From contig JACQBK010000084.1 in assembly GCA_016194505.1 (NCBI GenBank), positions 1 through 34,975 on the forward strand: a stretch of 34,975 bases of DNA, written 5' to 3'. This DNA is from Ignavibacteriales bacterium. GTDB taxonomy: Bacteria; Bacteroidota; Ignavibacteria; UBA10030. Positions 4,000-31,997 of the stretch are shown one piece after another. The notes beneath the pieces were generated by a model, which saw nothing but the letters and a program-made list of their open reading frames with translations, was not told the DNA's origin and made no database searches. The first letter of the stretch is position 1, and the number at the start of each line of letters is the position of its first letter. Position numbers and translations under genes: made by a program.

Positions 4000-4017
4000 C
4001 GAAGAAATGAACCCAGC

Positions 4018-4051
4018 AAAAATCCCGCCCGAATGAGCGGGATTTTTTTTT
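4018..4051 (+). terminator. Rho-independent terminator
   Basis: AAAATCCCGC-CCGAATGA-GCGGGATTTTTTTTT stem-loop with T-tract. Confidence 0.9.
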
Positions 4052-4064
4052 GACGCGATAACGA

Positions 4065-4796
4065 ATGCGCAACATCAAACTGACGATAGAATACGACGGG
4101 ACAAATTATGTCGGCTGGCAGGTTCAACCGAATGGTCCTTCCGTACAAGCAGAAGTTGAAAAGGCATTGCGCCAAATTCTGCAAGAAGATATTCATATCA
4201 ATGGAGCGGGAAGAACGGATAGCGGCGTCCATGCACGAGGGCAGGTTGCTAACTTTCTCACTGCTCATACTTTTGAAAACAAACCATTATGCAAAAGTTT
4301 GAACGGTATTCTTCCTTCCGATATTGCGGTTCTTTCAGCGGAAGATGTGCCAGAATCTTTTCACGCTCGGTATAGTGCACAAGCGCGAGAGTATCTGTAT
4401 TGTTTAGCTCTACAGCCGACAGCACTTTGGAGGAATTATTCTTGGTATGTCGGCGGCTATACATTAGATAAGGCGCTTATGAATTTTTGCACCGATTCTA
4501 TTCTGGGCGAACATGATTTTGCGTCATTTTGTAAATCAGAAGCAGAAGTGGATCATTATCGTTGCGTTATTCATAGCGCACAATGGCAAGTAATAGAATC
4601 ACAAATGATTTTTCGAATCTCAGCCAATCGCTTTTTGCATGGTATGGTGCGTGCGCTGGTCGGGACAATGGTTGAGGTCGGACGAGGATATCGTCCGTTG
4701 GAAGATTTCAGAAAAATTTTAGATGCAAAAGACCGGAAGGCCGCCGGCATGGCCGCTCCGGCAAAAGGGTTATTCCTTGAGCGGATTACCTATTAA
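4065..4796 (+). CDS. truA: tRNA pseudouridine(38-40) synthase
   Basis: KLTIEYDGTNYVGWQVQPNGPSVQ, GAGRTDSGVHARGQVANF, FLHGMVRALVGTMVEVGRG. Confidence 0.97.
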   Translation: MRNIKLTIEYDGTNYVGWQVQPNGPSVQAEVEKALRQILQEDIHINGAGRTDSGVHARGQVANFLTAHTFENKPLCKSLNGILPSDIAVLSAEDVPESFHARYSAQAREYLYCLALQPTALWRNYSWYVGGYTLDKALMNFCTDSILGEHDFASFCKSEAEVDHYRCVIHSAQWQVIESQMIFRISANRFLHGMVRALVGTMVEVGRGYRPLEDFRKILDAKDRKAAGMAAPAKGLFLERITY

Positions 4797-4914
4797 GTGG
4801 TTGATATGCGAGCAAAGATTCAAAAATCTTTTTATCCACGGTACCAAAAGATGAAGAACAGATTGTCGTGAATGCGGCATTGCAAATGGAGACCCTTTCC
4901 TTTACATTGAGAAT

Positions 4915-5925
4915 ATGATTAGAGAGGTCATTAGCAAGCTTTCATCAAAACAAAACCTTTCCAAGGATGAAGCGTATGCCGCGATGAATGATATTATGTC
5001 CGGCAACGCTACCGAGTCCCAAATTGCTGCTTTCTTGATGGGGCTTCGCCTCAAAGGGGAAACTGTTGATGAAATTGCCGGTTGCACACTATCAATGCGT
5101 GAGAAAGCTACACGAATCAACTCGAAGCATAAGAATGTCATTGACACGTGCGGGACGGGAGGGGATGCTTCTGGGACATTTAATATCTCTACGACTGCCG
5201 CTATTATAGCCTCTGCGGGTGGAGCGATAGTCGCAAAGCATGGCAATCGTGCGGTCTCAAGCAAATGTGGGAGCGCGGATGTGCTAAAAGCTCTCGGTGT
5301 TAACATTGAAATTCCGGTTGAGAAAGTTTCACGAGTGTTAGATGAGGTCGGCATAACATTTTTATTTGCGCCGTTGATGCACGGCGCAATGAAATATGCT
5401 GCCCCAGTACGGAAAGATTTAGGCATACGAACAATTTTTAACGTATTGGGACCCTTAACGAATCCTGCCGGGGCAAAGCGGCAAGTGTTGGGGGTGTTCG
5501 ATCCTTCGTTAACAGAAGTGATAGCGTCGGTGTTAGCTGAGTTAGGTTCTGAGCACGCGTTGGTTGTGCACGGGGAGGGTGGATTTGACGAGCTATCAAC
5601 TCTCGGATGGACAAAAATCAGTGAACTGAAAGGCGGATCGGTCAATACATACAACATTACAGCGCAAGAGTTTGGGTTCTCAAACCATGATGCTTCTGGA
5701 TTGAAGGGGGGAGATGCTGCGACAAATTCTCGGATTGTTCGTGATATTTTCAATGGCAAAAATGGCGCGCCGAGAGAAATTTCTTTGTTGAATGCCGCCG
5801 CGGCACTTGTTGTTGCAAGCAAAGCGCAGTCGCTTAAAGAAGGGGTATCATTGGCGCAAGAGTCTGTGGATAGCGGCGCCGCGTTACGTAAACTTACTCA
5901 ATGGATAGAAGCAACGAACAATTAA
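4915..5925 (+). CDS. trpD: Anthranilate phosphoribosyltransferase
   Basis: DTCGTGGDASGTFNISTTAAI, AKHGNRAVSSKCGSADVLKALG, NVLGPLTNPAGAKRQVLGVF. Confidence 0.97.
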   Translation: MIREVISKLSSKQNLSKDEAYAAMNDIMSGNATESQIAAFLMGLRLKGETVDEIAGCTLSMREKATRINSKHKNVIDTCGTGGDASGTFNISTTAAIIASAGGAIVAKHGNRAVSSKCGSADVLKALGVNIEIPVEKVSRVLDEVGITFLFAPLMHGAMKYAAPVRKDLGIRTIFNVLGPLTNPAGAKRQVLGVFDPSLTEVIASVLAELGSEHALVVHGEGGFDELSTLGWTKISELKGGSVNTYNITAQEFGFSNHDASGLKGGDAATNSRIVRDIFNGKNGAPREISLLNAAAALVVASKAQSLKEGVSLAQESVDSGAALRKLTQWIEATNN

Positions 5926-5934
5926 CTATATCAC

Positions 5935-6783
5935 TTGGACCCATTTCATAAAATATTTAAAGAGCTTTTGATAAAGTTGGGTTTGTTAAAAGCCAAACTC
6001 TCTGAAGACGACCTTAGGCAGGTTTTGGAGGCAAGCACCCTCAGCGGCACGTTGGATAAAACCGAGCATGAGCTGATTAAAAGTATCTTTGAGTTTACGG
6101 ATACTACCGTTAAGGAGATCATGGTCCCGCGCCCGGATATAGTCGCTTTGGATCTCTCGATGCCTCGCGAATCGCTAGTTCGAAAAGTTATCGAAGAGGG
6201 CTATTCACGTCTTCCGGTGTACAAAGGAACTATTGATAACATTGTGGGAATTGTTTACAGCAAAGACCTGCTAAGCCTTCTTGAGCATCGGGACTTAATT
6301 GTGTTGCAGGATATTATTCGCCCCGTCATGTTTGTGCCGGAATCCAAACAAGTCAGTCAGCTTTTAAGGGAGTTTCAGCAACACAAGGCTCACCTTGCCG
6401 TTGTCGTTGATGAGTTCGGTGGCACTGAAGGCATCATCACAATGGAAGACATTGTGGAAGAAATTGTAGGGGAGATTCACGACGAGTACGATGAAGTTAG
6501 AAAATCTGCCGAACGATCTACCGATGGTTCCCTTGTCGTTGATGCTCATTTGAGCATAAGTGATTTCAATGAGCAGTTTAGCGCGCAAATTCCAGAAACC
6601 GCAGACTACGAAACATTAGCCGGCTTTTTACAAAAACATACGGGCCGCTTACCCGATCTCAATGAAGAAATTAAATACGATGACTTAACGTTTGTCATCA
6701 TAGGTAAGACGGCGCGAAGAATTCGGCAAGTGAAGGTAAGTAAGATGCCGTCAACCCTTTCTAATAATGAGAAAGACGCATGA
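5935..6783 (+). CDS. CBS-pair CorC/HlyC-like protein (no DUF21 membrane domain), TTG start
   Basis: VKEIMVPRPDIVALD, SRLPVYKGTIDNIVGIVYSKDLL, HLAVVVDEFGGTEGIITMEDIVEEIVGEIHDEYD, C-terminal transporter-associated domain. Stop overlaps the trpC start (ATGA). Confidence 0.9.
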   Translation: MDPFHKIFKELLIKLGLLKAKLSEDDLRQVLEASTLSGTLDKTEHELIKSIFEFTDTTVKEIMVPRPDIVALDLSMPRESLVRKVIEEGYSRLPVYKGTIDNIVGIVYSKDLLSLLEHRDLIVLQDIIRPVMFVPESKQVSQLLREFQQHKAHLAVVVDEFGGTEGIITMEDIVEEIVGEIHDEYDEVRKSAERSTDGSLVVDAHLSISDFNEQFSAQIPETADYETLAGFLQKHTGRLPDLNEEIKYDDLTFVIIGKTARRIRQVKVSKMPSTLSNNEKDA

Positions 6784-7556
6784 GTATTTTGGATGACATT
6801 CTTATCCAAAAACGGAAAGAAGTCGAAAGCGCTCGCCGGCTTGTTCCTTTGGAAAAGCTTAAAGAAGAAGCTTTTGCAAAAGGTGGTACTCGATCATTCG
6901 ATAAGGCGCTAAGAACATCGGGTATTTCAGTCATTGCGGAAGTTAAAAAAGCGTCTCCTTCCAGAGGAGTGTTAGTCGAAGATTTTGACCACTTGGCGAT
7001 TGCTCGAGACTATGAGAACGCAGGCGCAAATGCGCTCTCGGTGTTGACGGATGCTCCCTTTTTCCAAGGAGAAAAGAGATTTATTTCCGAGATCAAGAAA
7101 ATTACCTCCTTGCCAATTCTCCGTAAGGACTTTATCATTGATGAATATCAGGTGTACGAGTCCAAAGTCATTGGGGCGGATGCTATATTGCTTATTGTAA
7201 AAGCATTAGATATTTGTTCCCTTCAGACTTTATATGATTGCGCCCAATCTCTTGAATTATCAGTACTTGTGGAGGCTCATACAAAACAAGAGGTTGAAAC
7301 AGCAAACTCTATCGGTGCCGCAATAATTGGGATTAACAATAGGAACCTTGATACCTTTGAGGTCTCCATTGAACATTCAATTAGACTTAGGTCAATTATT
7401 CGCACTGGAACAATAGCGGTCAGCGAAAGCGGAATTAAGTCTTCTCAAGATGTTTCCGCCCTTCGTAAGGCGGGATTTGATGCTATTCTTATTGGTGAAG
7501 GGTTGGTAGCTAATAGCAATAAAATTAATGCTTTACAAGAATTGGTTCGTGGGTAA
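6780..7556 (+). CDS. trpC: Indole-3-glycerol phosphate synthase
   Basis: ISVIAEVKKASPSRGVL, LRKDFIIDEYQVYE, IGINNRNLDTFEV, AVSESGIKSSQDV. Confidence 0.97.
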   Translation: MSILDDILIQKRKEVESARRLVPLEKLKEEAFAKGGTRSFDKALRTSGISVIAEVKKASPSRGVLVEDFDHLAIARDYENAGANALSVLTDAPFFQGEKRFISEIKKITSLPILRKDFIIDEYQVYESKVIGADAILLIVKALDICSLQTLYDCAQSLELSVLVEAHTKQEVETANSIGAAIIGINNRNLDTFEVSIEHSIRLRSIIRTGTIAVSESGIKSSQDVSALRKAGFDAILIGEGLVANSNKINALQELVRG

Positions 7557-7558
7557 GC

Positions 7559-8197
7559 ATGCAGGAGTTGTTTGTAAAAATTTGTGGGATAACGAATCTT
7601 GAAGATGCTCAGCATGCTGTTCTATGCAAGGCTGATGCAATCGGATTTATTTTTTATGAGGAGAGCCCCCGCTTTATTCCTCATCACCGGGCGGCTGAGA
7701 TTGTCAAGAAACTGCCGGAGCACGTTTCAAAAATTGGGGTCTTTGTCAATGCAGACCGCAAGTTCATTCACGAAGTCGTCAGCCATGTGAATCTCAGCGC
7801 AGTCCAGCTTTACGGCAATGAGGGACCCGATGACCTTGTCAATTACGAAGCCAGTGTTATTAAGGTCTTTCGAGTAAAAGATGATTTTGATGTTGAGGTA
7901 ATGCGAAATTATATCGTTGATGCTTTCCTGTTGGATACTCACAAAGAAGGAATGATGGGCGGGACGGGCACGACGTTTAACTGGAATCTTGCCGTTGCTG
8001 CGAAGGAGTATGGGAAAATAATTCTTTCTGGCGGATTGACGCCGGAAAATATCGAGGAAGCTGTTCGGTTTGTCCAGCCTTACGGCGTAGATGTGAGCAG
8101 TGGCGTTGAGGCGAGTCCCGGGAAAAAAGACCCGCAAAAGGTTCGTGAGTTTATTATGCGCGCTAAAAGTATTCCATTATACTATAATCAAGAATGA
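7559..8197 (+). CDS. trpF: Phosphoribosylanthranilate isomerase
   Basis: [63 protein letters not shown]. Confidence 0.97.
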
Positions 8198-17044: not shown

Positions 17045-17068
17045 CGGTCACGGACCATTCCGTGACCG
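17045..17068. repeat. Intergenic palindrome, hairpin 1
   Basis: CGGTCACGGA-CCAT-TCCGTGACCG, perfect 10-bp stem. Confidence 0.9.
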
Positions 17069-17087
17069 TTTTGCAGAGATTGTTTAC

Positions 17088-17113
17088 GCTGTCACGGTGT
17101 GGACCGTGACAGC
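17088..17113. repeat. Intergenic palindrome, hairpin 2
   Basis: GCTGTCACGGT-GTGG-ACCGTGACAGC, perfect 11-bp stem sharing GTCACGG/CCGTGAC with hairpin 1. Confidence 0.9.
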
Positions 17114-17141: not shown

Positions 17142-20100
17142 TTATTTTGTTGCGAACGTAATTATCTTTTTCAAATAGGTTTTTTCCTCAACGGCGCCAT
17201 CAAAGCGAAAAACAGCAGTTAATTTTTCACCTTTTCTCGATTTAATTTCCGCATTGTGGACACTCTTTATAACTGAATCAGGGTCAATCACATCCAGCGT
17301 ATATTCAAATCCTGTACGGCCTTCTACGGTAAGCAAATACTTTCCTTGCTCCCACTTTTCATCAATTACACGGAGACCTGTAGATTCCTGATGCGGTTCG
17401 GGATGAGGCACCGGAGGGACTATCCCAATTCCTTTTGAGTGATGCACCCTCATGGTCGTTTTGCCTGATAGTTTAATTGGAAGGATGGGTGCATCTTCGT
17501 ACTTCGTTATAATTTTTCTCTGTTGGATTTTCTTTGTCCCAATTTGAACGGAGGAAATTTCCGTTCCCAAAGAAAACAACTGCTGAAATATCACTTGCAT
17601 TGTTTTTGAACTGGAAGTGTGGAACTCATAACTTGTAACGTTTTCTTCCCGCGTCATACGAAAATTACATTGTTGTTTTCCTAACCGGATATTTTTGACT
17701 TCGACTGTTTTCCAATCGGGAGGAAAATATGGGCGCAATGTTAATTGATTTTTCAAAGCATCGAATTCCAATCCGAGCATGCCCTCAAGAATCGGCTGCA
17801 AGACCATTGTCTCCGACCAAGCCTGGTGGGGACAGACTCCTGCCGGCTGAAACTGTTCGCCGTGCAACACCTCCTCAACATATCCCGCCGCAAAATGCTG
17901 ATAGACTAAAAGATTATTCATAAGATGAACATATCCCTGTAACGGACGATACAACGTGAATTCCGCCAAGGCTGTCCATCCAGTAAACAGGGGCCAAACG
18001 CTTCCGTAGTGATACCCTTTAGGATTATACATTGCGTTATCGCTGCCAACGATGCGAGTGCCCCAATCAGCGGAAAATCTGTGCGATGCGTATTCGGCTA
18101 AACAATTTTTTGAGTTTTCTTTTTCAGTGGCTCCGAGATACATGCCCACCGCCGGTAACACAGTTTTTTCTGTATTGTAGGATCCGTCTTTACGTTTACC
18201 AAAATTGTAAAAATTGGTCGTTGCGTTCCAAAATTCTTTTTTTACAATTTCACGAACAGTCTCGGATTCTCGCCGCCATTTTCTTGCCAGAGGATTTTTC
18301 ATTAATGCTTGCGCGACATACGAGGCTTCTTTCAACGCGGCACACCAGCACGAAGCAAGATAATGTTCCGTGTGAACAGGGAAGAGCTTTCCGCCTTCGA
18401 CCCAACCGTGGCCAACGTTAGTGTTTTCGATAAGATGATCACCGTCTGTATCAGTCGAGAAGCAGAAATCAATGGCTCTGGATAGATGTTCAAATTCTTT
18501 TCGAACAAATGCGGTATCGCCGCTTGCCCGCAGATAATGCCCCATCAGAATAATATAAAGGGGAGTGGAATCAGCCGCGTCAAAGTGAGCGTAGGCGCTG
18601 GTCGTCAGTTCGTGCAAAATCTTTCCGTTGACGTCTTGGTGTTTTCCGAGAAACTCCAACGTGTCTTTTACTTTATCAAAATCTCCGTAATCGAGAACGG
18701 CGAAGCTTGTCCAAACGCTATCGCGGCCAAAGTACCAGGCGTAGCCGGGCCTGCCGCTTATTTTCTGTCCGCCATCCCAGCCCGAGGTGCTCAGCCCGTA
18801 GCCCGCTAAAAACGATGCACCGAGTCCCGGAGTCTCGACAAAAAATCTATCGGTTGCTGCAACAGCCCAATTGTATCCTTCATTAAACTCTTCGTTGGGA
18901 GTATTGAATTGCACCAGTTGCTTTTGGAATGATTTAAAGTAGCGGGCTTGTCGCTCTAACGCTCGAGAAGGATTTGACACTATTTTTTCATAAGCACGAA
19001 CTGCTTCTGCCTCGCCACGGTTCGATCCCGCGAAAGCGAGAGTGCAGTAAGGATTCCGTTCATTCAATTGAAGTCGAAGCCCAACAGCAACTTGGATCGT
19101 TTCCGTCGGCTCGCCGGAGAATTTATTTTCTTTTTCTACGATAGAAGAATATTGTCCGGCAACAATTTCTGAAGGAGGCATCGAACAACCAATAAGAGAG
19201 ACAAGCTCGCTGTTCTGATTTGCCACGACAAACCCTTGCAAACCACCATCCCAAGCGTACCGTAAGGAACCTGAGGCTTGTTCATTAAGAGGCCACATCA
19301 ATCGTAGATCAACCTGCGCTGTGCAGAGAATTTCTACTGGTTCTTTTGAATCAATTCTGTAATGAATTGCTCCGCAAGAGAGTTGGTAATCTCCAAATAT
19401 GACTTCTTCTATGACTGCTTCTCCCACATGATAAATGCGCGTGATGGATTCAGGCTCGATAATAACCTGTGGATTGAGCGAAGCGCTGGACTGAGCATCT
19501 GACGCTCCAATTTTGAAACTGGTTTTAAAATCTTTCAGAATTCTTAACGGATGGCACCAAATTTCCTGGATGCCGCCGCGCTCTTTTCCCATAAGAAGAA
19601 TTCTTCGTCCGCCGACATCATAAAATTGCTCAGGCTCAGCAGGAGAGGTAAACTCCCGCTTGATGAGTAAGCCGTTCGGTTTGATCTGCCAATAATCAGA
19701 CTCTATTTTGATTGGCTTATTATTGCGCTTGATTGACCGAACAGACTGAGGCTCAAATGTCCAATATGTTTTTCTAAGTTTTTGGCTTGGTTTAGTCGCG
19801 AGATAGGTAATGCAATTAACAGCAAATTTTTCGAGCTGTTTTCTAAACCGCGTCTGTTGCTCTTTGAAGAAAAAGTATGTTCCGATTGTAAGCGTTTTGC
19901 CTTTGCCAATTTGGTATTCGGAAATAATTCTCCATTGCTCGTTTAACTTGATATAAAGATGTTCAACACCAACAACAGAACCGTTGGCTGGAGTTGTTTT
20001 ATCATACAGTGCGGCAGAATAATCTACTCCGCTCGATGGATTCCAGGTATACACTCCCCCTGCAAGGCCATCAAAAATTGGGTGTCCTTGAAAACTTGCA

Positions 20101-20489
20101 AACCCACGAATATCCGGATAATCTTCTGCCCAAGATTTTTGCTCCCAGGCACCTTTGGCTATAAAGTTTGGCCGCGAATTTTCGAAGCCCAAATCAACAA
20201 TATAGGGGGCGGCAAGTAACGATAACAGGAGAGAGCCGCCTTGTTCCGCGTACTGTTTGATTGTGTGAAGGATTTCCGGCTCAAGAACTAACGGAGGTAT
20301 CGTGATCGAAGAATCGAAATGCCACCATACTACATCATATCCCTTAAGAACTGAAGGCTTCCGGCTGATAGCAGCAAATGGAATTTTTGTTGCTTTGAAT
20401 TTCTTTAAAGAGGAAAGAAAATTCCATCCAGCCCTTTCTTCTTCTGACAATGCTTGTGGATTGTAAATTAAATAACCGATCGTTTTCAT
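17142..20489 (-). CDS. GATase-like domain fused to (alpha/alpha)6 glycoside hydrolase (amylo-alpha-1,6-glucosidase/GH15-GH133-like)
   Basis: 1115 aa. N-terminal about 235 aa (GYDVVWWHFDSS, YAEQGGSLLLSLLAAPYIVDLG, GKGKTLTIGTYFF) looks GATase1/DUF4960-like. C-terminal GH region: GRPGYAWYFGRDSVWTSFAVLDYGDFDKVKDTLEFL, SVWPLFTGWTALAEF, CPHQAWSETMVLQPILEGMLGLEFDA. Confidence 0.8.
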   Translation of the reverse strand: MKTIGYLIYNPQALSEEERAGWNFLSSLKKFKATKIPFAAISRKPSVLKGYDVVWWHFDSSITIPPLVLEPEILHTIKQYAEQGGSLLLSLLAAPYIVDLGFENSRPNFIAKGAWEQKSWAEDYPDIRGFASFQGHPIFDGLAGGVYTWNPSSGVDYSAALYDKTTPANGSVVGVEHLYIKLNEQWRIISEYQIGKGKTLTIGTYFFFKEQQTRFRKQLEKFAVNCITYLATKPSQKLRKTYWTFEPQSVRSIKRNNKPIKIESDYWQIKPNGLLIKREFTSPAEPEQFYDVGGRRILLMGKERGGIQEIWCHPLRILKDFKTSFKIGASDAQSSASLNPQVIIEPESITRIYHVGEAVIEEVIFGDYQLSCGAIHYRIDSKEPVEILCTAQVDLRLMWPLNEQASGSLRYAWDGGLQGFVVANQNSELVSLIGCSMPPSEIVAGQYSSIVEKENKFSGEPTETIQVAVGLRLQLNERNPYCTLAFAGSNRGEAEAVRAYEKIVSNPSRALERQARYFKSFQKQLVQFNTPNEEFNEGYNWAVAATDRFFVETPGLGASFLAGYGLSTSGWDGGQKISGRPGYAWYFGRDSVWTSFAVLDYGDFDKVKDTLEFLGKHQDVNGKILHELTTSAYAHFDAADSTPLYIILMGHYLRASGDTAFVRKEFEHLSRAIDFCFSTDTDGDHLIENTNVGHGWVEGGKLFPVHTEHYLASCWCAALKEASYVAQALMKNPLARKWRRESETVREIVKKEFWNATTNFYNFGKRKDGSYNTEKTVLPAVGMYLGATEKENSKNCLAEYASHRFSADWGTRIVGSDNAMYNPKGYHYGSVWPLFTGWTALAEFTLYRPLQGYVHLMNNLLVYQHFAAGYVEEVLHGEQFQPAGVCPHQAWSETMVLQPILEGMLGLEFDALKNQLTLRPYFPPDWKTVEVKNIRLGKQQCNFRMTREENVTSYEFHTSSSKTMQVIFQQLFSLGTEISSVQIGTKKIQQRKIITKYEDAPILPIKLSGKTTMRVHHSKGIGIVPPVPHPEPHQESTGLRVIDEKWEQGKYLLTVEGRTGFEYTLDVIDPDSVIKSVHNAEIKSRKGEKLTAVFRFDGAVEEKTYLKKIITFATK

Positions 20490-20490
20490 T

Positions 20491-20850
20491 TCACAGTTGA
20501 GCTATAATTGACATTAATTTATCCATGGTTATGGGCTTTTGTAGAAACGCCTCAACGCCGGTTGCGAGCACATCCGCAGGAGAATAAAGCGCAGCATAGC
20601 CGGTAATCATGACGATAGGGAATTGAGGATGTTGTTCCTTGATAGCTTTTGTCAATTCTATGCCATTCATTGTTGGCAGATCTACGTCTATAATAGCCAT
20701 ATCAGGTTTTTGTTTTTCCAACATTTCTAACACAATTTCGCTTGATGATGTTTCAAGGAGCTTGTATCCGCGCTCGCCAAGGGCATCTATTAACAATTGT
20801 CGAAACACTTCGTCATCATCTACGATAAGGATGGTTGAGCCCTTTTTCAT
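20491..20850 (-). CDS. Receiver-only response regulator (CheY-like)
   Basis: ILIVDDDEVFRQLL, MAIIDVDLPTMNGIEL, IVMITGYA, FLQKPI; 119 aa with no output domain. Confidence 0.95.
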   Translation of the reverse strand: MKKGSTILIVDDDEVFRQLLIDALGERGYKLLETSSSEIVLEMLEKQKPDMAIIDVDLPTMNGIELTKAIKEQHPQFPIVMITGYAALYSPADVLATGVEAFLQKPITMDKLMSIIAQL

Positions 20851-20854
20851 AGGG

Positions 20855-22147
20855 TTATTTTTTCTTTTGAAGATCTTGTATTTGATTTTGAATTACTTTT
20901 TGTAGCAGTCTTTTTGTCGTGTCGTTTGAAGTCAGCGTAAGATACTTTTGATAATTTTTCAGTGCCATCGAGGCGTCATGAAGTTGTTCAAAGGCAAAAC
21001 CGAGGAAGAACTGTGATTGAACATTCGAAGGGTCGAATTCAACCGATCGTTGATAAGCAGAGACGGCTTCCTTGTATTGTTTCCTGTTATAATACATACT
21101 TCCGAGTTGGTAGTAGATGTATCCTATGTCTTCCGGATGGGATACAGCAACAGCTTTTTGAAACGTCCGTGCCGCTAATTTTACGGAATCCATTTGCTGA
21201 TAGACTAATGCGAGGTTTGTCAAATACAGAGGGTTTTGGTTATCAATCACAATTGCTTTTTCGTACGCTACAACGGATGAATCATGTTTATTTTCATGAA
21301 AATATGCATGGCCGAGATTGGCGGCGTATGTAGCAGTTAAACTATCTATTTCTGTCGCTTTTTTAAAAAAAGAGATGGCGTTGGGGTAATCGTTTACTTG
21401 ACGGTAGCAAAGCCCGATTCTATTCGCATAATCAGCGTTGTTGGGTCGTTGTGAAAACGCATTTTGGTATAATTCCAGCGCCTTTGCATAATCTTTTATT
21501 GCGTAATAGAGGGATCCTAAGACTGCAATTGCCGGAACGAAATTAGGATTGAGCTCGCTCGAAATTCTTAAGCACACGCGCGCGGAATCTTGCTTACCCA
21601 GAGCGACCATTGCATTGCCAAGGTAATAATAGCTCAAAAAGTCTCTCGGATTTATTTCAACGATACGTCGAAACTTATCTGCCGCCTCTTCATGCATCCG
21701 TTGGTCATTGTAGACCAGCCCAAGCTGGAACAACACTGGCGTATACGTTGAATCAAATGCAAAGGCGGTTTCGTAGTGTTGGCGTCCTTCAACAAGAGCT
21801 CCTGATTGAATAAGAAAACGGGCATACATAGAACGATACGGTACATTTGTAGAATCTCGCTCAACGACGGCTTGGAAAAATTTTTTCGCATTTTGAAAAT
21901 CATTTAACGAGGCATAACTCATCCCTACAAAAAACATTGTTTTGGGTGATGAGGAATCAGGCCGAGCGCTGAGCAGCGTTGAGACTGCTTCTGCATAGCG
22001 TCCCTCGGAATATTGTTGGATGCCGGCTTGGAAAAGACTGTCCTTCCTTGCCTGCTGATCTTGTTGACGAGCTTTGCTGAATGAAAACACTGTGTTTTGC
22101 AATAAGAGACAAATCAACATCAGTGAAAATATCTTAACCGGTTTCAT
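20855..22147 (-). CDS. Exported TPR-repeat protein
   Basis: Signal peptide MKPVKIFSLMLICLLLQNTVFS; about 10 tandem TPR-like units (e.g. AVSAYQRSVEFDPSNVQSQFFLGFAFEQL). Confidence 0.93.
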   Translation of the reverse strand: MKPVKIFSLMLICLLLQNTVFSFSKARQQDQQARKDSLFQAGIQQYSEGRYAEAVSTLLSARPDSSSPKTMFFVGMSYASLNDFQNAKKFFQAVVERDSTNVPYRSMYARFLIQSGALVEGRQHYETAFAFDSTYTPVLFQLGLVYNDQRMHEEAADKFRRIVEINPRDFLSYYYLGNAMVALGKQDSARVCLRISSELNPNFVPAIAVLGSLYYAIKDYAKALELYQNAFSQRPNNADYANRIGLCYRQVNDYPNAISFFKKATEIDSLTATYAANLGHAYFHENKHDSSVVAYEKAIVIDNQNPLYLTNLALVYQQMDSVKLAARTFQKAVAVSHPEDIGYIYYQLGSMYYNRKQYKEAVSAYQRSVEFDPSNVQSQFFLGFAFEQLHDASMALKNYQKYLTLTSNDTTKRLLQKVIQNQIQDLQKKK

Positions 22148-22179: not shown

Positions 22180-23502
22180 TTAGCTAGTAGCTTTGTTACC
22201 CTTCTTTCGCCAATAATAATATACCGGAACACCAAGTGCCAAGAACAAAACACCAGCGCTGGCTTCGGCGGGTTTTTCAACAAACGTATAAATCACAAAT
22301 AAGGTGGAGAGGATCGTAAAAAAGAGAGGTGTGAAGGGATAGCCAAAAGTTTTATACGGACGTTCAGCGTTGGGAAGTTTTTTTCTGAATATAAACACAC
22401 TTGCAGCAGCTAAAGCGAAAAATATCCAGTCCGTGAACACTACGTACGAGATGAGGCTTTCAAATGTTCCCCAGAAAAGAATAAGCACAATAGCCCACAT
22501 TGTTTGGAAAATAATTGAGAACATCGGCGTTCTGTATTTTGGATGGATTTCTGCGACACGCTTGAAGAACACGCCATCGTTTGCCATTGCGTAATAGATG
22601 CGGGGCGCGGTAAGCGTATAAATTCCCGTTGTGCCAAATGTTGAAATAAAAATTGTCAGAGCTATGAGGCTGCCTCCCAGCGGGCCCAGCACGATGCTTA
22701 ATGCGTCCGAAGCAATGCGAGGAGAAGCTGCCATCTGAGCAGGCGAGAGAAGAAACATGTAGGCGACGTTTGCCGAGACATAAATAAATGTTACCGTAAG
22801 AGCTCCTAAGATAAGTGAAAGCGGAACCGTTCGCTTAGGGTCCTTTGCCTCTGCGGCGGTAAATGTTGAGTGCTGCCATCCGCCGTAAGACCACATGACA
22901 CTGACGAAGGCAAGTGTGAGCGCGCTTGTTAAGCCGTTTGAAAGATTTCCTAATGGCGCCGCAAAATTTGTTGTATGGCTTGATCCCCACCCAAGTCCGG
23001 CGACGAGTAGCACGCCAATGCCGGCAAGTTTGAGAATCGTAAATAAATCGGAAAAAATTCCCCCTGCTTTTACACCCAAGACGTTAATAATAGTTACGAG
23101 AATCATGCCACCGATTGCCACCATCATTTGTCCGGTAGGAGATAGCGGGACGAAATATCCAAAATATGTCGAGAAAGCAACTGCCAGTGCTGCGAGAGCA
23201 CCCGTATTTGCTACAAGAAAAATAGCCCAGCCGTATAAAAACCCAACAAGTCCGCCGTACGCTTCTGTGAGAAAAACATATACGCCGCCCGCACGGGGCA
23301 TCATGGCGCCCAATTCGGCAAAGGTAAGCGCTCCGGACATTGCCATGAGTCCACCAACGACCCAAACGCCGATAATCCACATTGGAGAGGGAAGCGCATT
23401 TGCTATAAGCGCGGGGGTGAGAAAAATGCCCGAGCCTATTGCTGAGCCGATGGAAATCATCGTCATATCAAAAAGGGAGAGATCGCGTTTAAGTTCGGTC
23501 AT
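22180..23502 (-). CDS. APC-family amino acid permease
   Basis: MISIGSAIGSGIFLTPALIANALPSPMWIIGVWVVGGLMAMSGALTFAELGAMMPRAGGVYVFLTEAYG; multiple TM segments. Confidence 0.95.
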   Translation of the reverse strand: MTELKRDLSLFDMTMISIGSAIGSGIFLTPALIANALPSPMWIIGVWVVGGLMAMSGALTFAELGAMMPRAGGVYVFLTEAYGGLVGFLYGWAIFLVANTGALAALAVAFSTYFGYFVPLSPTGQMMVAIGGMILVTIINVLGVKAGGIFSDLFTILKLAGIGVLLVAGLGWGSSHTTNFAAPLGNLSNGLTSALTLAFVSVMWSYGGWQHSTFTAAEAKDPKRTVPLSLILGALTVTFIYVSANVAYMFLLSPAQMAASPRIASDALSIVLGPLGGSLIALTIFISTFGTTGIYTLTAPRIYYAMANDGVFFKRVAEIHPKYRTPMFSIIFQTMWAIVLILFWGTFESLISYVVFTDWIFFALAAASVFIFRKKLPNAERPYKTFGYPFTPLFFTILSTLFVIYTFVEKPAEASAGVLFLALGVPVYYYWRKKGNKATS

Positions 23503-23578: not shown

Positions 23579-25852
23579 TTAAATTTGCACCGCAATCGCC
23601 TTACCGATGACGCTTTCTGCGTGATGTTTTCCATCTACCCAGACTTTGAATGTTTTACCTTTGAGTTCTACTTTGAATTTTCTTCCTCGTATCAAAACAT
23701 TTTCAATACGCAGGTGTTTTAATCCGAAAGGGAACGGATCAATCGTGACGGAAAATTCCTCAGGACGAATCCCGCAAACGTATTTTATGATTAAATCGTT
23801 GACCCACGAGTGTTGGTAATCGTCTATACCGCGGTACACGCTCGGTTTTCCGTTTAAAGGATTGTAATGCTCGAAGCAATTCGGACGTGTTGAATCGCCA
23901 TCGAAAAACATCATCTTGATAAACTTTTCTATGAACTCCACACTTTTCTTCTTTAGCAGCTGATCGTTAAATCGAATGGCGGATTGCGCTAACGCCTCGG
24001 CAACATGGCTGTTTGTCATGGGCCAAACACGACCATTCCATGGGCAGTTCATTCGTTTACCCTTCCACTCCGGCAACGCGCTAAAAAACTCATCGTCGGT
24101 GCTTGAAGAGGGAACGGGGTAGGAAGTCCAAAATTCCTTCGGATTAAGCAAATGTTTCTTTAAGCCCGCAATGTGGCTATCATCAACAATGTCGGTAAAA
24201 TAAGGATAAAAACATGTTGCGGCTTTTATCTTTGTCCGCTTCCCGGTAGCTGGATCCACATCAAAAAACATTTCTTCTTGTGCATCCCACATTTTATCGC
24301 GGACTGCATTTTTAATCTTATCAGCTTCTAATTTCCAAAGATCGGAATCTTCCTGCTTGCCGAGTTTTTCCGCAATCATCGCCAACGCGCGCTTTAACTC
24401 ATAAATATAAATCGTAACATCAACTCCTTTGAGGCGAAATACTTCTCCCCAATGTTTCTGGTCCGCTTTGGCGTTGACTGCCATATAGCGGCTCATAAAT
24501 TCTTGTCCCGTTTCAAAATGATTATCAATATCGTACAGCCCGCTGACTTCCTCATCGCGCTCGCGGTCAAAGTAGCTTGCATATTTTTTTAATCCGTCAT
24601 AAACGTTTTCGAAATATTCGAATGAAGGGTGTATCGCGTGTAGTTGCACCACGGCATTTCCCCAATTGGCGTGGTAGAACATTTCCTGCCGGTAATGATT
24701 CGCATCAATATATCCACGAAAGCCGCCGTCCTCTCGTTGGTTATCCAGGAAGGTCAGAAGGCTTCCCTGTGCCAGCTCCGGTTCTTGCATCCAACGATTT
24801 TCCAGCATGTGACATTGAGCGCTATATGAAATCGGCGCGCGGAAATATTGAATGCCCTCGCAAACGCAAGGGCGCTTGTAATTACCCTCGTTTCCATAAA
24901 TGGTATTTAAGCGCAGTCCGTACCAACGATACCAATAGTAGCGCGTGAGAAATTCATCCGAGCATTCAAAATAGGGGACACTTTGAAAGTGATCGTTCCA
25001 ACTGATCCTACTTAATTCAACAGGATTCTTAGACTTGACGATTGGCGCAATATGTTGCAGAGCCTCATTCAGCATAGAAGCCGCAGAGAATGCAATCGTA
25101 ATATTTTCGCTTTTATTGGGCTTTATGCTGAGCGATTGGTGTAACCCTAAATAGATAATCCCTTCATTGGTTGTTCCGGATAATTTCTTTTCATCGGGGA
25201 GCTTCTTATTCTGGAAAGATTCAAAAAACGGCGAAAGCTTCCAGTGCGGCTGTACAGCCGTCTGCTCACTTACATTGACGCTGTATGATTGAGCCTTCTT
25301 GCTCAGTGCAAACGCGCACGCAAACTGAAGATGGGGCATAACGGATGGGCGTAGATATTTATTAAAGGAAATTACCCCATTCGTATAAGAAATCCCATCA
25401 ATCCACGCTGATTCTTTAGAAGGGTAATGTTCTTGTGTTGACCAGGCTATAAGATGAAGACGCAGGCTATGCTTTAATGTGTTCTTTATTTCGACGACGC
25501 AACTTGCTACGTCATTTGGCAAAATGGACTTTGTCTCAATGATTTTAATTTTACTCTTGCCAATGTTCGCTTCGTAAATCTGTGTAAGGGCAGATGGATT
25601 CCATTGGCGCGAAAGGAACTTTAGTGGAATCTCGTTTCCTGCGTCATCAAGAATTGTCCAGGTAAAGAGAGGCTTGAGTTCATAATTATAGTAATGAGCC
25701 TCGTCCCAAAAACCGGGATAATCAAGATACACAGGGAACGAAGGAGCCCAAAGAAGTTTATTGCCGCCACCCAAATACCATTTGTCGGTTCGAGTGAGGA
25801 AATTTAATACATTAATTTTTTTCATAGCTCTTGCCTTATTACAAAACATCAA
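23579..25852 (-). CDS. Glycoside hydrolase, MGH1/GH63/trehalase-like (alpha/alpha)6 protein, no signal peptide
   Basis: EGIQYFRAPISYSAQCHMLENRWMQEPELAQGSLLTFLDNQREDGGFRG, MNCPWNGRVWPMTNSHVAEALAQSAIRF, DDYQHSWVNDLIIKYVCGI. True start may be MKKINVL at about 25825. Confidence 0.82.
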   Translation of the reverse strand: MMFCNKARAMKKINVLNFLTRTDKWYLGGGNKLLWAPSFPVYLDYPGFWDEAHYYNYELKPLFTWTILDDAGNEIPLKFLSRQWNPSALTQIYEANIGKSKIKIIETKSILPNDVASCVVEIKNTLKHSLRLHLIAWSTQEHYPSKESAWIDGISYTNGVISFNKYLRPSVMPHLQFACAFALSKKAQSYSVNVSEQTAVQPHWKLSPFFESFQNKKLPDEKKLSGTTNEGIIYLGLHQSLSIKPNKSENITIAFSAASMLNEALQHIAPIVKSKNPVELSRISWNDHFQSVPYFECSDEFLTRYYWYRWYGLRLNTIYGNEGNYKRPCVCEGIQYFRAPISYSAQCHMLENRWMQEPELAQGSLLTFLDNQREDGGFRGYIDANHYRQEMFYHANWGNAVVQLHAIHPSFEYFENVYDGLKKYASYFDRERDEEVSGLYDIDNHFETGQEFMSRYMAVNAKADQKHWGEVFRLKGVDVTIYIYELKRALAMIAEKLGKQEDSDLWKLEADKIKNAVRDKMWDAQEEMFFDVDPATGKRTKIKAATCFYPYFTDIVDDSHIAGLKKHLLNPKEFWTSYPVPSSSTDDEFFSALPEWKGKRMNCPWNGRVWPMTNSHVAEALAQSAIRFNDQLLKKKSVEFIEKFIKMMFFDGDSTRPNCFEHYNPLNGKPSVYRGIDDYQHSWVNDLIIKYVCGIRPEEFSVTIDPFPFGLKHLRIENVLIRGRKFKVELKGKTFKVWVDGKHHAESVIGKAIAVQI

Positions 25853-25871: not shown

Positions 25872-28427
25872 TTATTTAGTACGTATAGAAATACTATGCC
25901 TCACAAATTCGCCTTGCGGGCCATTGGGAAATAAAATATCCAGCGTATTTCCTTGGAGTCGCGCCCCCGTCACTGATTGTATCAATTCCGAATTTTGCAA
26001 TTTCAAATTATAAATTTCGTTCGCCAATCCTTCAACGACGATTTTTAGTTCATTCTCTTTCCGTGTTGTTGAAATGATTTTTAATCCCTTATTCGTATCG
26101 CCGGTTTTTGTATCGCTTGAAGGCGGCAGTAACTCGACCGTCGGTTCAAATGTTATCTCAATATGAGCGGCGTTTTTAATTGGTACTTCAACGATTGGTT
26201 GAATCGTCTGGGAAGATACTTGTTCTTTCCATCGAACGGCTTGCCCATTGGCTTGAACCGCCAGGATTTTGTGTCCAATCCCCAACGCAGGGGCAAATGT
26301 CAAAGAATAGGGAAGACCGTTTTTCGTTTTCACATCCAATGTAATTTTGGTTTTTTCTCGTTTGAAGTCAAAAGAAAAATATTCCTGTCCAACATGATAC
26401 TCTGTGATCAAGAATTTGTCCCAATCTGCCGGAACATGCGGAGCGAACGAAACGCTTTTAGCGATTGCATCACCTTCGAGGCCGAGCATCCCTCGAACGA
26501 AAGGCATCACAACTCCCGCCGTGCAAAATCCCTGATGCGCCACCGCTTCTTGCGGCCATATATTTTGCTCACCGGAAAAAACCTCGGTCACTTGACCCAG
26601 CGAATTATCAAATGTGTGTCTCACGGATGCCATCAGTGAATTATATCCTTGCAATGCAAAATGGTGCTTGTATTGCGCTGTCGCTACCCAGCTTGTAAGG
26701 AAGGGCCACACTGCTCCGTAATTATAGTTAAGCGCCTCAAAGTATTGGCTCTTGATGGAAATACTCCGCGTTCCCCAATCGGTTGAAAGCTCGGCGGAGT
26801 TTATTTTCTCCAGCGATTTTGCGCTTTTGTCGGGTTCACCAAGCTCCCACATTAGCCCGACGGAACTCCATGGGGAAGCTATATCAACGCGTTCATCGTT
26901 TGCAGTAAAAGCATAAGCATACTGTTTATTGTTCTCGTCCCAGAATTTTTCTTTGAATGTTTTCGAAGCTTTCGTATAATACTCTTGGGCTTTTTTGGCG
27001 AATGACTGTTCCCCGACCGCCTGCGCTAAGAATGGCATTGCATACGCCGCACGCACCCACACTGCTCCGGTATAAATATCCGATTGAATATCAGTTAACG
27101 GTCCATACTCCATCGCTCCAAGTCCGGCTTTGGCATTATCCATCAGTCCATCATTATTTTCATCTGTGGAAAGAGACCAATCGTACGCGCGCTTGATAGA
27201 ATTCCAACTCTTCTTGATAAAATCCACATCGCCCGTCATCTTGTAATAATCGTAGATCGAGCAAATGTAAAATGGCGAGGTATCACCGTGGATGTATCCA
27301 TACGGATAATCTTTCCACCAATTCACATAGCCTCCGGCTTGCGTAAGCTCGTGAGCCATCTTTCCATCGGCGCGTTGCCATTGTTGTGTGAAGGCGAGTG
27401 CATCGCGTACCGTTTCATAGGCTCCGTAGCCGTTCAGACTAAAAGAATTGATGAACGCGTCACCGCCGAAGAACCATCCAAAGCCGGGTCGCCCGCCGGT
27501 CCCGGAAGGACCTAAGCCTGCCACCATTCCATAGCCAAGATCAGGATTGTTCACCATAAGATTATCGTATGCGACTTTTGCCCATTCAAGCGCAAGATTG
27601 AGTTCCTTATTTGGGGTTTGAACTTGCATTGTGTTGGAGCGTAGCGAGCGATAATAAGAAAAATTTTGATGATAGTATTGTTCAGGATTTCCCGCCAGTC
27701 GTTTGTAGATTGCTTTGATGCTATCACGAGATCCTTTTCCGCCAGCCATGATGATTGGTATATATTTTCCTTTCAGTGAGTCGGGATGATGCACAAGTAT
27801 TTTAAATTGATTCGGGACATCGGAAAGCATGTGGGCAGGAGTGTACGAAATTCCCGCTGCGGCAGGGCTTCCAATGAATGCTGAATTTTTCCTAGTCGGT
27901 TCGGAGATTTGATACGCTTTGATGTCATCAAGCCAGCGCGCCGACTGACCACCGATGCCTGCGGGCCACATCGGCTGTAGAACGGGGAGGAAACTGCATA
28001 CAATCGTCAACGGCTCAGTTGAGCTTACGTCAAGGAAAATGATTGCTCCGGGTTCCTCAATTGGAGTTACGTAAATCGCTTTGACGGTAAAAGACTGATA
28101 TGTGTACGTGAGAGTGGTTGCCTCCGGCGTTACGGAAATGTACCGGACAATATCTTTTGCTTTGATCGGCTCAGTCGAACTGCCGATGAAAAACGAAAAC
28201 TCAAAATTTCGGAAAAGCTTTAAAGGATAAGCCCAAGCTTCGAACGAGCCGCTTTCGTATCCGAGAACGGCGAATTTCCTTCCCACCTTATCAAAATACG
28301 TAGAAGGCTGCGCGAGACGATGAAGCTCGAGGTCATTAGGTCCTAACTTAAACGCAGGAACGGTTTGAGGCTGTGCAATAAAAGTGGTCGCAAATAAGAA
28401 AAATAAAGCGATAATAAAGCTTTTCAT
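25872..28427 (-). CDS. Exported (alpha/alpha)6 glycoside hydrolase-like protein, amylo-alpha-1,6-glucosidase-like
   Basis: Signal peptide MKSFIIALFFLFATTFIAQPQT. GTGGRPGFGWFFGGDAFINSFSLNGYGAYETVRDALAF, GDTSPFYICSIYDYYKMTGD and AVWPFLTSWVATAQYKHHFALQGY parallel the 1115-aa protein. Confidence 0.85.
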   Translation of the reverse strand: MKSFIIALFFLFATTFIAQPQTVPAFKLGPNDLELHRLAQPSTYFDKVGRKFAVLGYESGSFEAWAYPLKLFRNFEFSFFIGSSTEPIKAKDIVRYISVTPEATTLTYTYQSFTVKAIYVTPIEEPGAIIFLDVSSTEPLTIVCSFLPVLQPMWPAGIGGQSARWLDDIKAYQISEPTRKNSAFIGSPAAAGISYTPAHMLSDVPNQFKILVHHPDSLKGKYIPIIMAGGKGSRDSIKAIYKRLAGNPEQYYHQNFSYYRSLRSNTMQVQTPNKELNLALEWAKVAYDNLMVNNPDLGYGMVAGLGPSGTGGRPGFGWFFGGDAFINSFSLNGYGAYETVRDALAFTQQWQRADGKMAHELTQAGGYVNWWKDYPYGYIHGDTSPFYICSIYDYYKMTGDVDFIKKSWNSIKRAYDWSLSTDENNDGLMDNAKAGLGAMEYGPLTDIQSDIYTGAVWVRAAYAMPFLAQAVGEQSFAKKAQEYYTKASKTFKEKFWDENNKQYAYAFTANDERVDIASPWSSVGLMWELGEPDKSAKSLEKINSAELSTDWGTRSISIKSQYFEALNYNYGAVWPFLTSWVATAQYKHHFALQGYNSLMASVRHTFDNSLGQVTEVFSGEQNIWPQEAVAHQGFCTAGVVMPFVRGMLGLEGDAIAKSVSFAPHVPADWDKFLITEYHVGQEYFSFDFKREKTKITLDVKTKNGLPYSLTFAPALGIGHKILAVQANGQAVRWKEQVSSQTIQPIVEVPIKNAAHIEITFEPTVELLPPSSDTKTGDTNKGLKIISTTRKENELKIVVEGLANEIYNLKLQNSELIQSVTGARLQGNTLDILFPNGPQGEFVRHSISIRTK

Positions 28428-28509: not shown

Positions 28510-29343
28510 TTAGCCTTTTATCCCTGTCATAGTAATGCCTTTGACAAAATATTTTTGCGCAAACGAAAACACAATTACGATTGGCACCATGACGACAACA
28601 GCCGCCGCCATTTGATGGGACCAATCAGTATTATAAAGATTGCTGAAATTCGCAATGCCTACCTCAACAGTTCGCATATCCGTCCTGTTAGTGACAATGA
28701 GGGGCCAAAGGAAATCCTTCCAGCTTCCCATAAAAGCGAAAATTGCAAGCGTTGCAAGCGCCGGTTTTGAGAGGGGAAGAATTACTTTCCGGAAAATTGT
28801 GAACTCCGAAGCTCCGTCAACGCGAGCGGCGTCTTCTAACTCTTTTGGAATGGTAAGGAAGAATTGCCGTAGAAGGAAGATTCCCCACACGCTGGAAAGC
28901 GTTGGGGTGAACAAAGCCCAATAGGTATTGATCCATCCGAACGTGGTAATGACAAGAAATGTGGGGATAATGGTGACAATCGCCGGTATCATCATTGTGC
29001 CGAGATAGAGAGCGAAGATTTTATCTCTCCACGCGAATCGAAGCCGCGCAAAGGCATACGCCGCCATGGAACAAAACATAAGCTGACCGAGAACCGATAC
29101 AGCGGCTACAATCATTGTGTTGAGGAAAAATCTTCCGAAGGGTTGCAGGGACATTGCCTCCGCGAAATTTTCCCACTTCCAATTTGTGGGAAGTAACTTC
29201 GGAGGAAATTGATAGACCTCGTTTTCTGTCATCAATGCCGTGCTTACCATCCACAAGAAAGGGATAAGCATGGAAAATGCAAGAAGCAATACTATAGTGT
29301 AAACTGTAGCTGTTGTTATCTTTTTTAATTTTGATTTTTCCAT
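28510..29343 (-). CDS. Carbohydrate ABC transporter permease, MalG/UgpE type
   Basis: PFLWMVSTALMTENEVYQFPPKLLPTNWKWENF; EAA loop LEDAARVDGASEFTIFRKVILPLSKPALATLAIFAFMGSWKDFLWPLI. Confidence 0.95.
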   Translation of the reverse strand: MEKSKLKKITTATVYTIVLLLAFSMLIPFLWMVSTALMTENEVYQFPPKLLPTNWKWENFAEAMSLQPFGRFFLNTMIVAAVSVLGQLMFCSMAAYAFARLRFAWRDKIFALYLGTMMIPAIVTIIPTFLVITTFGWINTYWALFTPTLSSVWGIFLLRQFFLTIPKELEDAARVDGASEFTIFRKVILPLSKPALATLAIFAFMGSWKDFLWPLIVTNRTDMRTVEVGIANFSNLYNTDWSHQMAAAVVVMVPIVIVFSFAQKYFVKGITMTGIKG

Positions 29344-29355
29344 TTTTACCTTAAA

Positions 29356-30465
29356 TCAGTCCCCAAAACTGATCCCTAAATCCCGTGCGCTTAAAATCGT
29401 GTCACAATCCAACGGCACGGATTTCATACGATGCGTTGCCTGTTCAAGCGGCACATAGCGAACAGTGGGAGGATCAAGCGCTACCATAATTCCCGATTTG
29501 CCTTCATCTAAAGCTCGTACTGCCGCCGCTCCAAACCGAAGTGAGATAAGCCTATCGAACGTGGTCGGGCTACCGCCCCGTAAAAGATGTCCCAATACCA
29601 CACAACGAGTTTCCTTGCCGGTTGCCGCTTGAATCTCTTTTGTTACAGTTTCACCGGCTCCGCCCAATCGCTCCGCGCGTCCCAATTCTTTTGAGACGAC
29701 CGAGACAGCTCCGCCTTTCGGCTTTGCTCCTTCGGCAACAACGACAATGGAAAACTTTGAGCCTCGTTTTTCCCTATCGTTAATCTTTTGCGCGACTTTT
29801 TGGATGTCATAAGGGATTTCGGGGATCAAAATAACGTCCGCTGTTCCCGAAACGCCGCTGTTCAGAGCAATCCAGCCTGCGTAGCGCCCCATGACTTCGA
29901 CCACCATCACACGTTGGTGCGCTTCGGCGGTTGAATGCAAGCGATCAATGCATGTGGTTGCAAAAGAAACTGCGGTATCAAAACCAAATGTAATGACCGT
30001 TTTGTCGAGGTCATTGTCAATCGTTTTAGGGACGCCGACAACGCGGAGTCTTTTTTTTGCAAACTCGTTTGCGATGGTGAGCGAACCATCGCCGCCGATT
30101 GCCACGAGCGCGTCAATTTTATTTTTCTTGAACGCGCGCATAAGCTCATCGGAACGATCTTTTTCGTACATCGTTCCGTCTTTGCGCTTTGTCGGATATT
30201 TAAGCGGATTACCTTTGTTTGTTGTGCCTAAAATGGTCCCACCAAGGTGGGTTATGCCGCTAACTTTATCCCTCGTCAGATCAATGAGTCCGCCATTAGG
30301 ATACAGGTGCGGGAGAAATAATCCGTTGTAACCGTCCCGAATGCCTACACACTCCCATCCGCGGTTTAATGCCGAGACTACGACCGAACGAATGACAGCA
30401 TTAAGCCCCGGCGCATCACCGCCGCCCGTGCTGATCGCAATTCGCTTGATTTTATTGTTAGCCAT
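29356..30465 (-). CDS. pfkA: 6-phosphofructokinase (phosphofructokinase A superfamily, group III-like)
   Basis: ISTGGGDAPGLNAVIR, AIGGDGSLTIA, VPKTIDNDLDKT, DRLHSTAEAHQRVMVVEVMGRYAGWIAL, LGHLLRGGSPTTFDR. Confidence 0.95.
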   Translation of the reverse strand: MANNKIKRIAISTGGGDAPGLNAVIRSVVVSALNRGWECVGIRDGYNGLFLPHLYPNGGLIDLTRDKVSGITHLGGTILGTTNKGNPLKYPTKRKDGTMYEKDRSDELMRAFKKNKIDALVAIGGDGSLTIANEFAKKRLRVVGVPKTIDNDLDKTVITFGFDTAVSFATTCIDRLHSTAEAHQRVMVVEVMGRYAGWIALNSGVSGTADVILIPEIPYDIQKVAQKINDREKRGSKFSIVVVAEGAKPKGGAVSVVSKELGRAERLGGAGETVTKEIQAATGKETRCVVLGHLLRGGSPTTFDRLISLRFGAAAVRALDEGKSGIMVALDPPTVRYVPLEQATHRMKSVPLDCDTILSARDLGISFGD

Positions 30466-30764: not shown

Positions 30765-31997
30765 TCAATGCTGATGTGTGCTCGATTGGATAATGACATT
30801 TTTTGCGCGCGGGTCGAGACAGCATTCTTTGGTTGCTTCTACCGCGAGGCGAACTTCTTCTTGTGTATTATAGAAATGCGGTGAGTAACGGAGTTTTCCT
30901 TCACGCAAGGCAATTTGAATATTGCGCTGTTGCAAAGCTTCAAAGACGGCGCTTGGACTCACGTTATTCGGAAGCTGGATAGTTACAATGCCCGCACGCT
31001 CGGAAGCTTGAGCGGATGAAATCAATTGTACTCCATCGATTGTTTGTAACTCGTCCGTAAGAAATTGTGTTAATGCAAGAATGTGGTTTTGAATTGTTGG
31101 CATGCCATATTCCAACAATGTCGTAATTGCGGCGTGCATTCCCCAAATACCGGGAATATTCAAAGTGCCGCTTTCGTAGCGCCGAGCCGATGAAGCAAGC
31201 GGCTGATTGTAATCAAAGAAATTCCATGGATTGTACACACCAAGCCATCCAAGATATTTTTGATGAATACGAGCCTGCAACTCTTCGGTGAGATAAAGAA
31301 ACCCTGTGCCATGCGGTCCCATTTGTCACTTTTGGCTTCCGGCAGAAAGAGCATCAATTTTCATTTTCTGAACATCAATATCTATTGCCCCAATGGCTTG
31401 AATACCATCTACGGCAAAAATTATTCCGCGGTGGCGACAGATTTCACCGATGGTCGCTAAATCTGCGCGGTAGCCGGTAAGAAATTGCACAGCGCTTAAT
31501 GCAACAACGCGCGTTTGCGGTTTAAGCGCTTCATAAATCATTTCGGACGTCATTGCTCCGGTGGGACATTTGATCGTTTCGATTTCAACGCCAAGTCGGC
31601 GCAAATGAAGGTAAGGATAAACATTTGCGGGAAACTCAAGATCGTTAAGCAAAACTCTGTCGCCACTTTCCCAATCAAGCCCCGATGCCACAATGTTCAG
31701 CGCATCGGAAGTATTGCCGGTGAAAGCGATGCGCTCGGGAGATTCTGCATGAATAAGCTGATGGAGAGCATTTCGAGTTTCGGCAACTTGTTGCATATCA
31801 ATTGTATAGGTATCAAGCTTGCCAAAGGAACGTTCTTCCAAATGCCGAGTCATAGCATCAACCACTCGCGTGGATAATGGGCTTGTGGCGGCGTGGTTGA
31901 AATAAACTACTCCCTTTGCCGTATACGGAAACAGTGACCGGATTTTTTGAAGAATATTATCAGGGATAGATTCTAATTTTTCGTGGAGTGGTTGCAT
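30765..31997 (-). pseudogene. Class V aminotransferase (cysteine desulfurase/CsdA-like fold), one in-frame TGA
   Basis: The 223-aa and 185-aa ORFs are the same frame, separated only by TGA CAA: ...DALSAGSQK-TGA-Q-MGPHGTGFLYL.... Class V motifs YFNHAATSPLS, NTSDALNIVA, FAVDGIQAIGAIDIDV, SQK(PLP)x..MGPHGTGFLY, RYESGTLN. Confidence 0.88.

Follow-up and report, generated by a model that had tools for sequence, protein, structure and literature searches.

A single-domain response regulator of an order-restricted family at the 3′ end of a sugar cluster in an Ignavibacteriales genome

The window, by which we mean the whole 34,975-nucleotide stretch of Ignavibacteriales DNA analysed here, contains a same-strand run of genes from 31997 to 17142. 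In order, the run encodes a class-V aminotransferase (AT), an 88-aa ORF, a phosphofructokinase (PFK), a MalG-like permease, the glycosidases GH_C and GH_B, an APC-family permease, a TPR protein, a receiver (RR) and the glycosidase GH_A (Table 1), and it converges on a metzincin gene and glgB. An earlier note on this DNA had singled out the last three genes as a packed group, and their ORFs, with gaps of 4 bp (TPR–receiver) and 1 bp (receiver–GH_A) and all on the same strand, were confirmed. The trio is the 3′ tail of the run rather than a self-contained unit. Gaps of 10 bp or less separate 11 of the 23 same-strand neighbour pairs in the window, and thus the tight packing of the trio is no more than normal operon structure. 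The co-transcription proposed in that note is plausible given the 4- and 1-bp gaps, although as that of the tail of a longer run and not of a stand-alone unit.

Table 1 Features of the sugar cluster
Feature	Coordinates	Strand	Evidence and remarks
Exported TPR protein, 430 aa	20855..22147	(-)	Pfam TPR repeats; orthologs in the G047, G019, G046 and G023 clusters and in G020
Stand-alone receiver (single-domain response regulator), 119 aa, D55/T83/K105	20491..20850	(-)	Response_reg 2.2e-28; orthologs in 18 other genomes of the order
GH_A glycosidase, cytoplasmic-type, 1115 aa	17142..20489	(-)	Pfam; AF2 model and Foldseek
APC-family amino-acid permease	22180..23502	(-)	Pfam/NCBIfam; synteny
GH_B, MGH1/GH63/trehalase-like glycosidase	23579..25852	(-)	Pfam 2.4e-44; conserved neighbour
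GH_C, secreted paralog of the GH_A catalytic part (27% identity)	25872..28427	(-)	
MalG-like sugar ABC permease	28510..29343	(-)	Pfam
Phosphofructokinase (PFK) of the cluster	29356..30465	(-)	
Class-V aminotransferase (cysteine-desulfurase-like), interrupted by an in-frame TGA	30765..31997	(-)	
Two palindromes, GTCACGG-N6-CCGTGAC	17047..17110	no strand	Convergent gap between the cluster 3′ end and the metzincin gene

The two palindromes form a closely spaced pair where none is expected by chance, and the motif was absent from all other fetched loci; the pair is a possible two-way terminator. An Rfam search of the DNA found no RNA elements, and promoter and terminator scans returned no more matches than in shuffled sequence. 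As the earlier note had stated, Pfam detected no histidine kinase or DNA-binding output protein among the main window proteins scanned. The SusC/SusD pair and the hybrid sensor that are hallmarks of Bacteroidota PULs with hybrid two-component systems were likewise not found among the window proteins scanned.

The Response_reg domain covers residues 7–116 of the 119-residue receiver (Pfam, 2.2e-28), leaving a receiver-only protein with no output domain. The acidic pocket D11/D12/D13, the phospho-acceptor D55, T83 and K105 are all present, and D12, D55, T83 and K105 are invariant among 18 receiver-family members, bearing out the intact D/T/K residues reported before. Domain coverage and conserved residues both identify the window protein as a single-domain response regulator. 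A signal peptide is visible in neither the receiver nor GH_A, and both proteins are probably cytoplasmic.

GH_A is composed of an N-terminal DUF4960/ThuA/GATase-like domain (about residues 1–235), a β-sandwich, an (α/α)6 glycosidase domain and a C-terminal β domain. Pfam matched DUF4960 at residues 14–143 and the MGH1-like, GDE_C and DUF608 glycosidase models; the combined Pfam and NCBIfam searches added a sub-cut-off oligosaccharide amylase match and gave no GH94 model. The AF2 model of the whole protein (pLDDT 80) found as its best Foldseek match the GH94 structure 1v7v (7e-24, TM 0.66 by target length), followed by GH116 and GH63. The model of the N-domain (pLDDT 83) matched 8aa2_G best (7.5e-13), and also ThuA-like 1t0b and GATases. 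The GATase–glycosidase fusion described earlier therefore stands as regards the predicted flavodoxin-like GATase fold, but the nucleophile Cys of class I glutamine amidotransferases is absent from the elbow, which reads LLLSLLAA; the only Cys of the N-domain lies in its last helix (NCITYL) and is not conserved. Homologs of GH_A (36–53% identity) occur widely among MAGs of Ignavibacteria, Bacteroidales and Calditrichaceae, and the named relatives nearest to the window genome indicate that it is itself an Ignavibacteria-type MAG. The invariant residues E698 (WVEGG) and E873 (EEV) are candidates for the catalytic pair. Signal peptides are present in the more distant homologs at L045 and L046 but not in the cluster form, so GH_A probably catalyses the cytoplasmic breakdown of an imported oligosaccharide.

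Conservation of the receiver–GH_A pair was assessed in 91 GH_A loci taken from public genomes, a few of which entered twice; of these loci, 85 have at least 500 nt of upstream sequence and 64 at least 3 kb. A receiver HMM, which did recover receivers at other positions of the loci, detected none beside GH_A in any of the 85, and the pair was rejected as a conserved unit. About 14 genomes of the order encode a close GH_A ortholog, and the receiver family is present in only two of these, the window genome and G077; most receiver-family genomes lack a close GH_A ortholog. In the family of the window genome, nothing lies between APC and GH_A at L042, L043 and L048, and other loci have TPR (L051/L154), P950 (L039 and others) or TPR together with P950 (L041) in this slot; at L040 APC is missing as well. 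The TPR protein adjoins APC and/or GH_A in some relatives. P950 (9602–12445 of L041, and relatives) is a 947-aa secreted protein with no Pfam match, and its gene overlaps the start of GH_A by 4 bp in several genomes. The direct adjacency of receiver and GH_A is special to the window genome and probably a by-product of local gene shuffling.

G077, from another family, offers what may be the only other case of a receiver upstream of GH_A, dependent on the closing of a contig gap. This genome contains only two pieces of P950, residues 15–297 and 571–946, which are complementary and both reach contig ends, the second being joined to GH_A; the likely order is thus RR-RR-P950-GH_A. The neighbourhood search that had been proposed for the receiver–GATase-GH pair hence returned the exact pair in the window genome only, together with this probable arrangement in which one gene lies between.

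These distributions bear on the possibility that the phosphorylated receiver binds GH_A, perhaps at its catalytically dead GATase-like domain, and thereby switches polysaccharide turnover on or off. Such binding would accord with the 1-bp gap, with the probable cytoplasmic location of both proteins and with the likely G077 arrangement, and the extra N-terminal domain, devoid of its nucleophile Cys, might serve for docking or regulation. It is also possible in principle, given the precedent of EpsW and EpsZ, in which a single-domain receiver activates a carbohydrate enzyme (PMC12802240). However, GH_A homologs without a nearby receiver also have the GATase-like domain, among them secreted forms that carry signal peptides, and the absence of an adjacent receiver from all 85 loci, with co-occurrence in just two genomes, leads us to regard this explanation as quite improbable.

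Orthologs of the receiver (40–54% identity) were found in 18 of the 97 other genomes of the order, so that the family is present in 19 of 98, and every receiver-family match in a phylum sample of 396 genomes came from this order. In a tree that included five other receivers of the window genome, the family receivers group as a single clade (100/100) separate from those five, and the longest terminal branch of the family belongs to the window receiver. Receiver orthologs lie in the same kind of sugar cluster in three families of the order, and a random newcomer was rejected as a description of the receiver on this ground. Of the interpretation in the earlier note, the idea of a receiver that serves a carbohydrate locus is supported by its recurrence in carbohydrate clusters, whereas its pairing with this particular glycosidase is unsupported. 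The arrangement had also been put forward as undescribed; the receiver family is new as an orthologous group, but its kind of protein is known, and no undescribed class of system is involved.

No other gene accompanies the receiver as often as that of the class-V aminotransferase, near it in 12 of the 18 other genomes. Ten f6 genomes have AT-RR neighbours; these include G076 with PFK-AT-RR, G065 with AT-APC remnant-RR and G077 with GH_B-AT-APC remnant-RR-RR-P950. Two g14 genomes (L141, L142) show APC-RR-AT, with APC directly upstream of the receiver and, in one, PFK and GH18 further upstream (PFK-GH18-APC-RR-AT). The f3 genome G058 has SBP/MalF-histidine kinase-RR-MalG-...-GH_C-GH_B. In five g9 genomes the receiver lies near housekeeping genes and away from the sugar cluster, so the link between receiver and cluster is not obligatory. 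Two further features of these loci may be recorded. At L169 and L171–L178 the AT and stand-alone receiver genes recur as a pair without a kinase or regulator, overlapping by 4 bp at L169 and L178. At L170 (3085–4134, G077) the stand-alone receiver is tandemly duplicated directly after a C-terminal permease remnant.

Conservation of these neighbours points to the aminotransferase or the permease, rather than GH_A, as the ancestral partner of the receiver. A regulatory action of the receiver on one of these two proteins would fit the frequency and overlaps of the AT-RR pairs, the upstream APC genes of the g14 genomes and the APC C-terminal remnants that adjoin the receiver at L170 and L175. Yet the window aminotransferase carries an in-frame TGA and lies about 10 kb from the receiver, and the g9 and f3 receiver genomes lack the aminotransferase at 1e-80; we consider this reading rather unlikely.

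The state of the window cluster differs from that of its relatives. Same-family genomes have an orthologous sugar cluster to which an SBP-MalF fusion and a GH18-like protein are added; the window cluster has neither, and a search of its own genome for ABC parts found only weaker, separate ABC sets elsewhere. The MalG-like permease (28510–29343) is stranded without its SBP-MalF partner, and the cluster appears partly degraded here. The TGA in the aminotransferase gene, near position 31325, takes the place of a Trp found in all 15 of the 15 relatives (SAGSQK*QMGPHG) and reflects a pseudogene, an assembly error or stop read-through. Genome-wide reading of TGA as Trp was set aside as a rescue of this gene, since the receiver gene itself has TGA as its stop codon; a nonsense change or an assembly error would be the simpler explanation. 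Together, the long end branch of the window receiver, the aminotransferase stop and the missing SBP-MalF and GH18 genes suggest that the window locus may be losing function.

Another possibility is that rearrangement has brought the receiver along as a passenger that has no functional tie to the cluster. Its variable positions, its absence from most cluster-bearing genomes, the free-standing g9 copies and the long branch of the window copy are all compatible with this. Against it, the receiver is repeatedly present in the cluster in three families and has retained its phosphorylation residues, and we hold a passenger role to be improbable.

A kinase gene adjoins the receiver in one relative only (L179). 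There, at 3213–7575 of the G058 locus, histidine kinase and receiver genes separate the SBP-MalF fusion gene from malG and thus stand within an operon for a sugar ABC transporter; the kinase gene, at 5505–6389 between SBP-MalF and the receiver, encodes a 294-aa HisKA+HATPase protein. In other f3 genomes related kinases, some of them Reg_prop sensors, precede malG or adjoin other genes, in these cases without the receiver. The window genome has no clear ortholog of the f3 kinase, and its presence there was rejected because the best matches reach only 28–33%; about 18 kinase-like matches and about 40 receivers were nonetheless found in this genome. Two-component input into the sugar locus is thus supported by synteny in f3, and in the window genome we infer it.

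The same data could be read as those of a Spo0F-like phosphorelay intermediate or a phosphate sink that works with unlinked kinases and DNA-binding regulators and controls transcription of the cluster indirectly. The receiver-only architecture, the lack of an output domain and of a kinase nearby, the abundance of kinases and receivers in the genome and the positions of the f3 kinases, ahead of the receiver ortholog in one genome and, as Reg_prop kinases, ahead of malG in others, would all suit such a role. No histidine phosphotransfer protein was identified, however, and the tight coupling of AT and receiver genes in f6 without regulators is atypical of a relay. We judge this role unlikely, though deserving of some weight.

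The explanation that we tentatively prefer, with somewhat less than even confidence, is that an order-restricted stand-alone receiver serves the sugar locus through an unlinked kinase and an output by protein contact, that its target is likelier not GH_A and that reshuffling brought it to its present slot. The trio would then be the 3′ end of a cluster for sugar uptake and oligosaccharide breakdown. The receiver would most likely gain its phosphate, on D55, from a histidine kinase whose gene is at another site of the genome and, by analogy with the action of EpsW on EpsZ, the phospho-receiver would act as a diffusible switch through protein–protein contact. Its target would probably be the transport or metabolism machinery of the cluster, with the aminotransferase or the permease as first candidates by synteny, and not GH_A specifically. 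The site of the receiver between TPR and GH_A would have arisen by reshuffling of a variable slot, APC-[TPR/receiver/P950]-GH_A. A broader proposal, which we offer as speculative and on balance unlikely, is that of an order-wide two-component branch in which the stand-alone receiver directly controls sugar-operon enzymes or transporters post-translationally, without a DNA-binding regulator, and the kinase either is unlinked or, as in G058, has been captured into the operon.

Single-domain response regulators that act directly on metabolic enzymes are rarely documented. The present receiver family, small and associated within one order with a sugar cluster and an aminotransferase, provides a concrete, testable case. 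The kinase, receiver and transporter genes of G058, present in one run, supply a natural pair for in vitro phosphotransfer.

The closest mechanistic precedent is EpsW-EpsZ of Myxococcus xanthus, where a single-domain response regulator activates a phosphoglycosyl transferase post-translationally; EpsZ is a membrane biosynthetic transferase, and EpsW is phosphorylated by the Dif chemosensory kinase (PMC12802240). Both EpsW and the window receiver are receiver-only proteins with no DNA-binding output, and the phospho-form of EpsW contacts a carbohydrate enzyme. Whereas that system is biosynthetic and served by the Dif kinase, the window locus is catabolic, has no kinase near, and the interaction here is a proposed one. 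Regulators of the CheY/Spo0F/DivK type share with the 119-aa window protein the receiver-only form and the canonical D/T/K residues; by contrast, the window receiver has no chemotaxis, sporulation or cell-cycle genes nearby, and its orthologs are linked to the aminotransferase and the sugar cluster. For the GH_A N-domain, the best match in both sequence and fold is the DUF4960 surface glycan-binding protein of the Bacteroides levan utilisome (PDB 8aa2). That protein is part of a surface glycan-uptake machine, while in GH_A the domain is fused to an (α/α)6 glycosidase and there is no signal peptide. With GH94 phosphorylases, GH116, GH63 and archaeal glycogen-debranching enzymes GH_A shares the β-sandwich and (α/α)6 barrel, along with weak GDE_C, MGH1 and DUF608 sequence matches, but identity over the fold is 10–14%, and GH_A has no strong membership of a named GH family.
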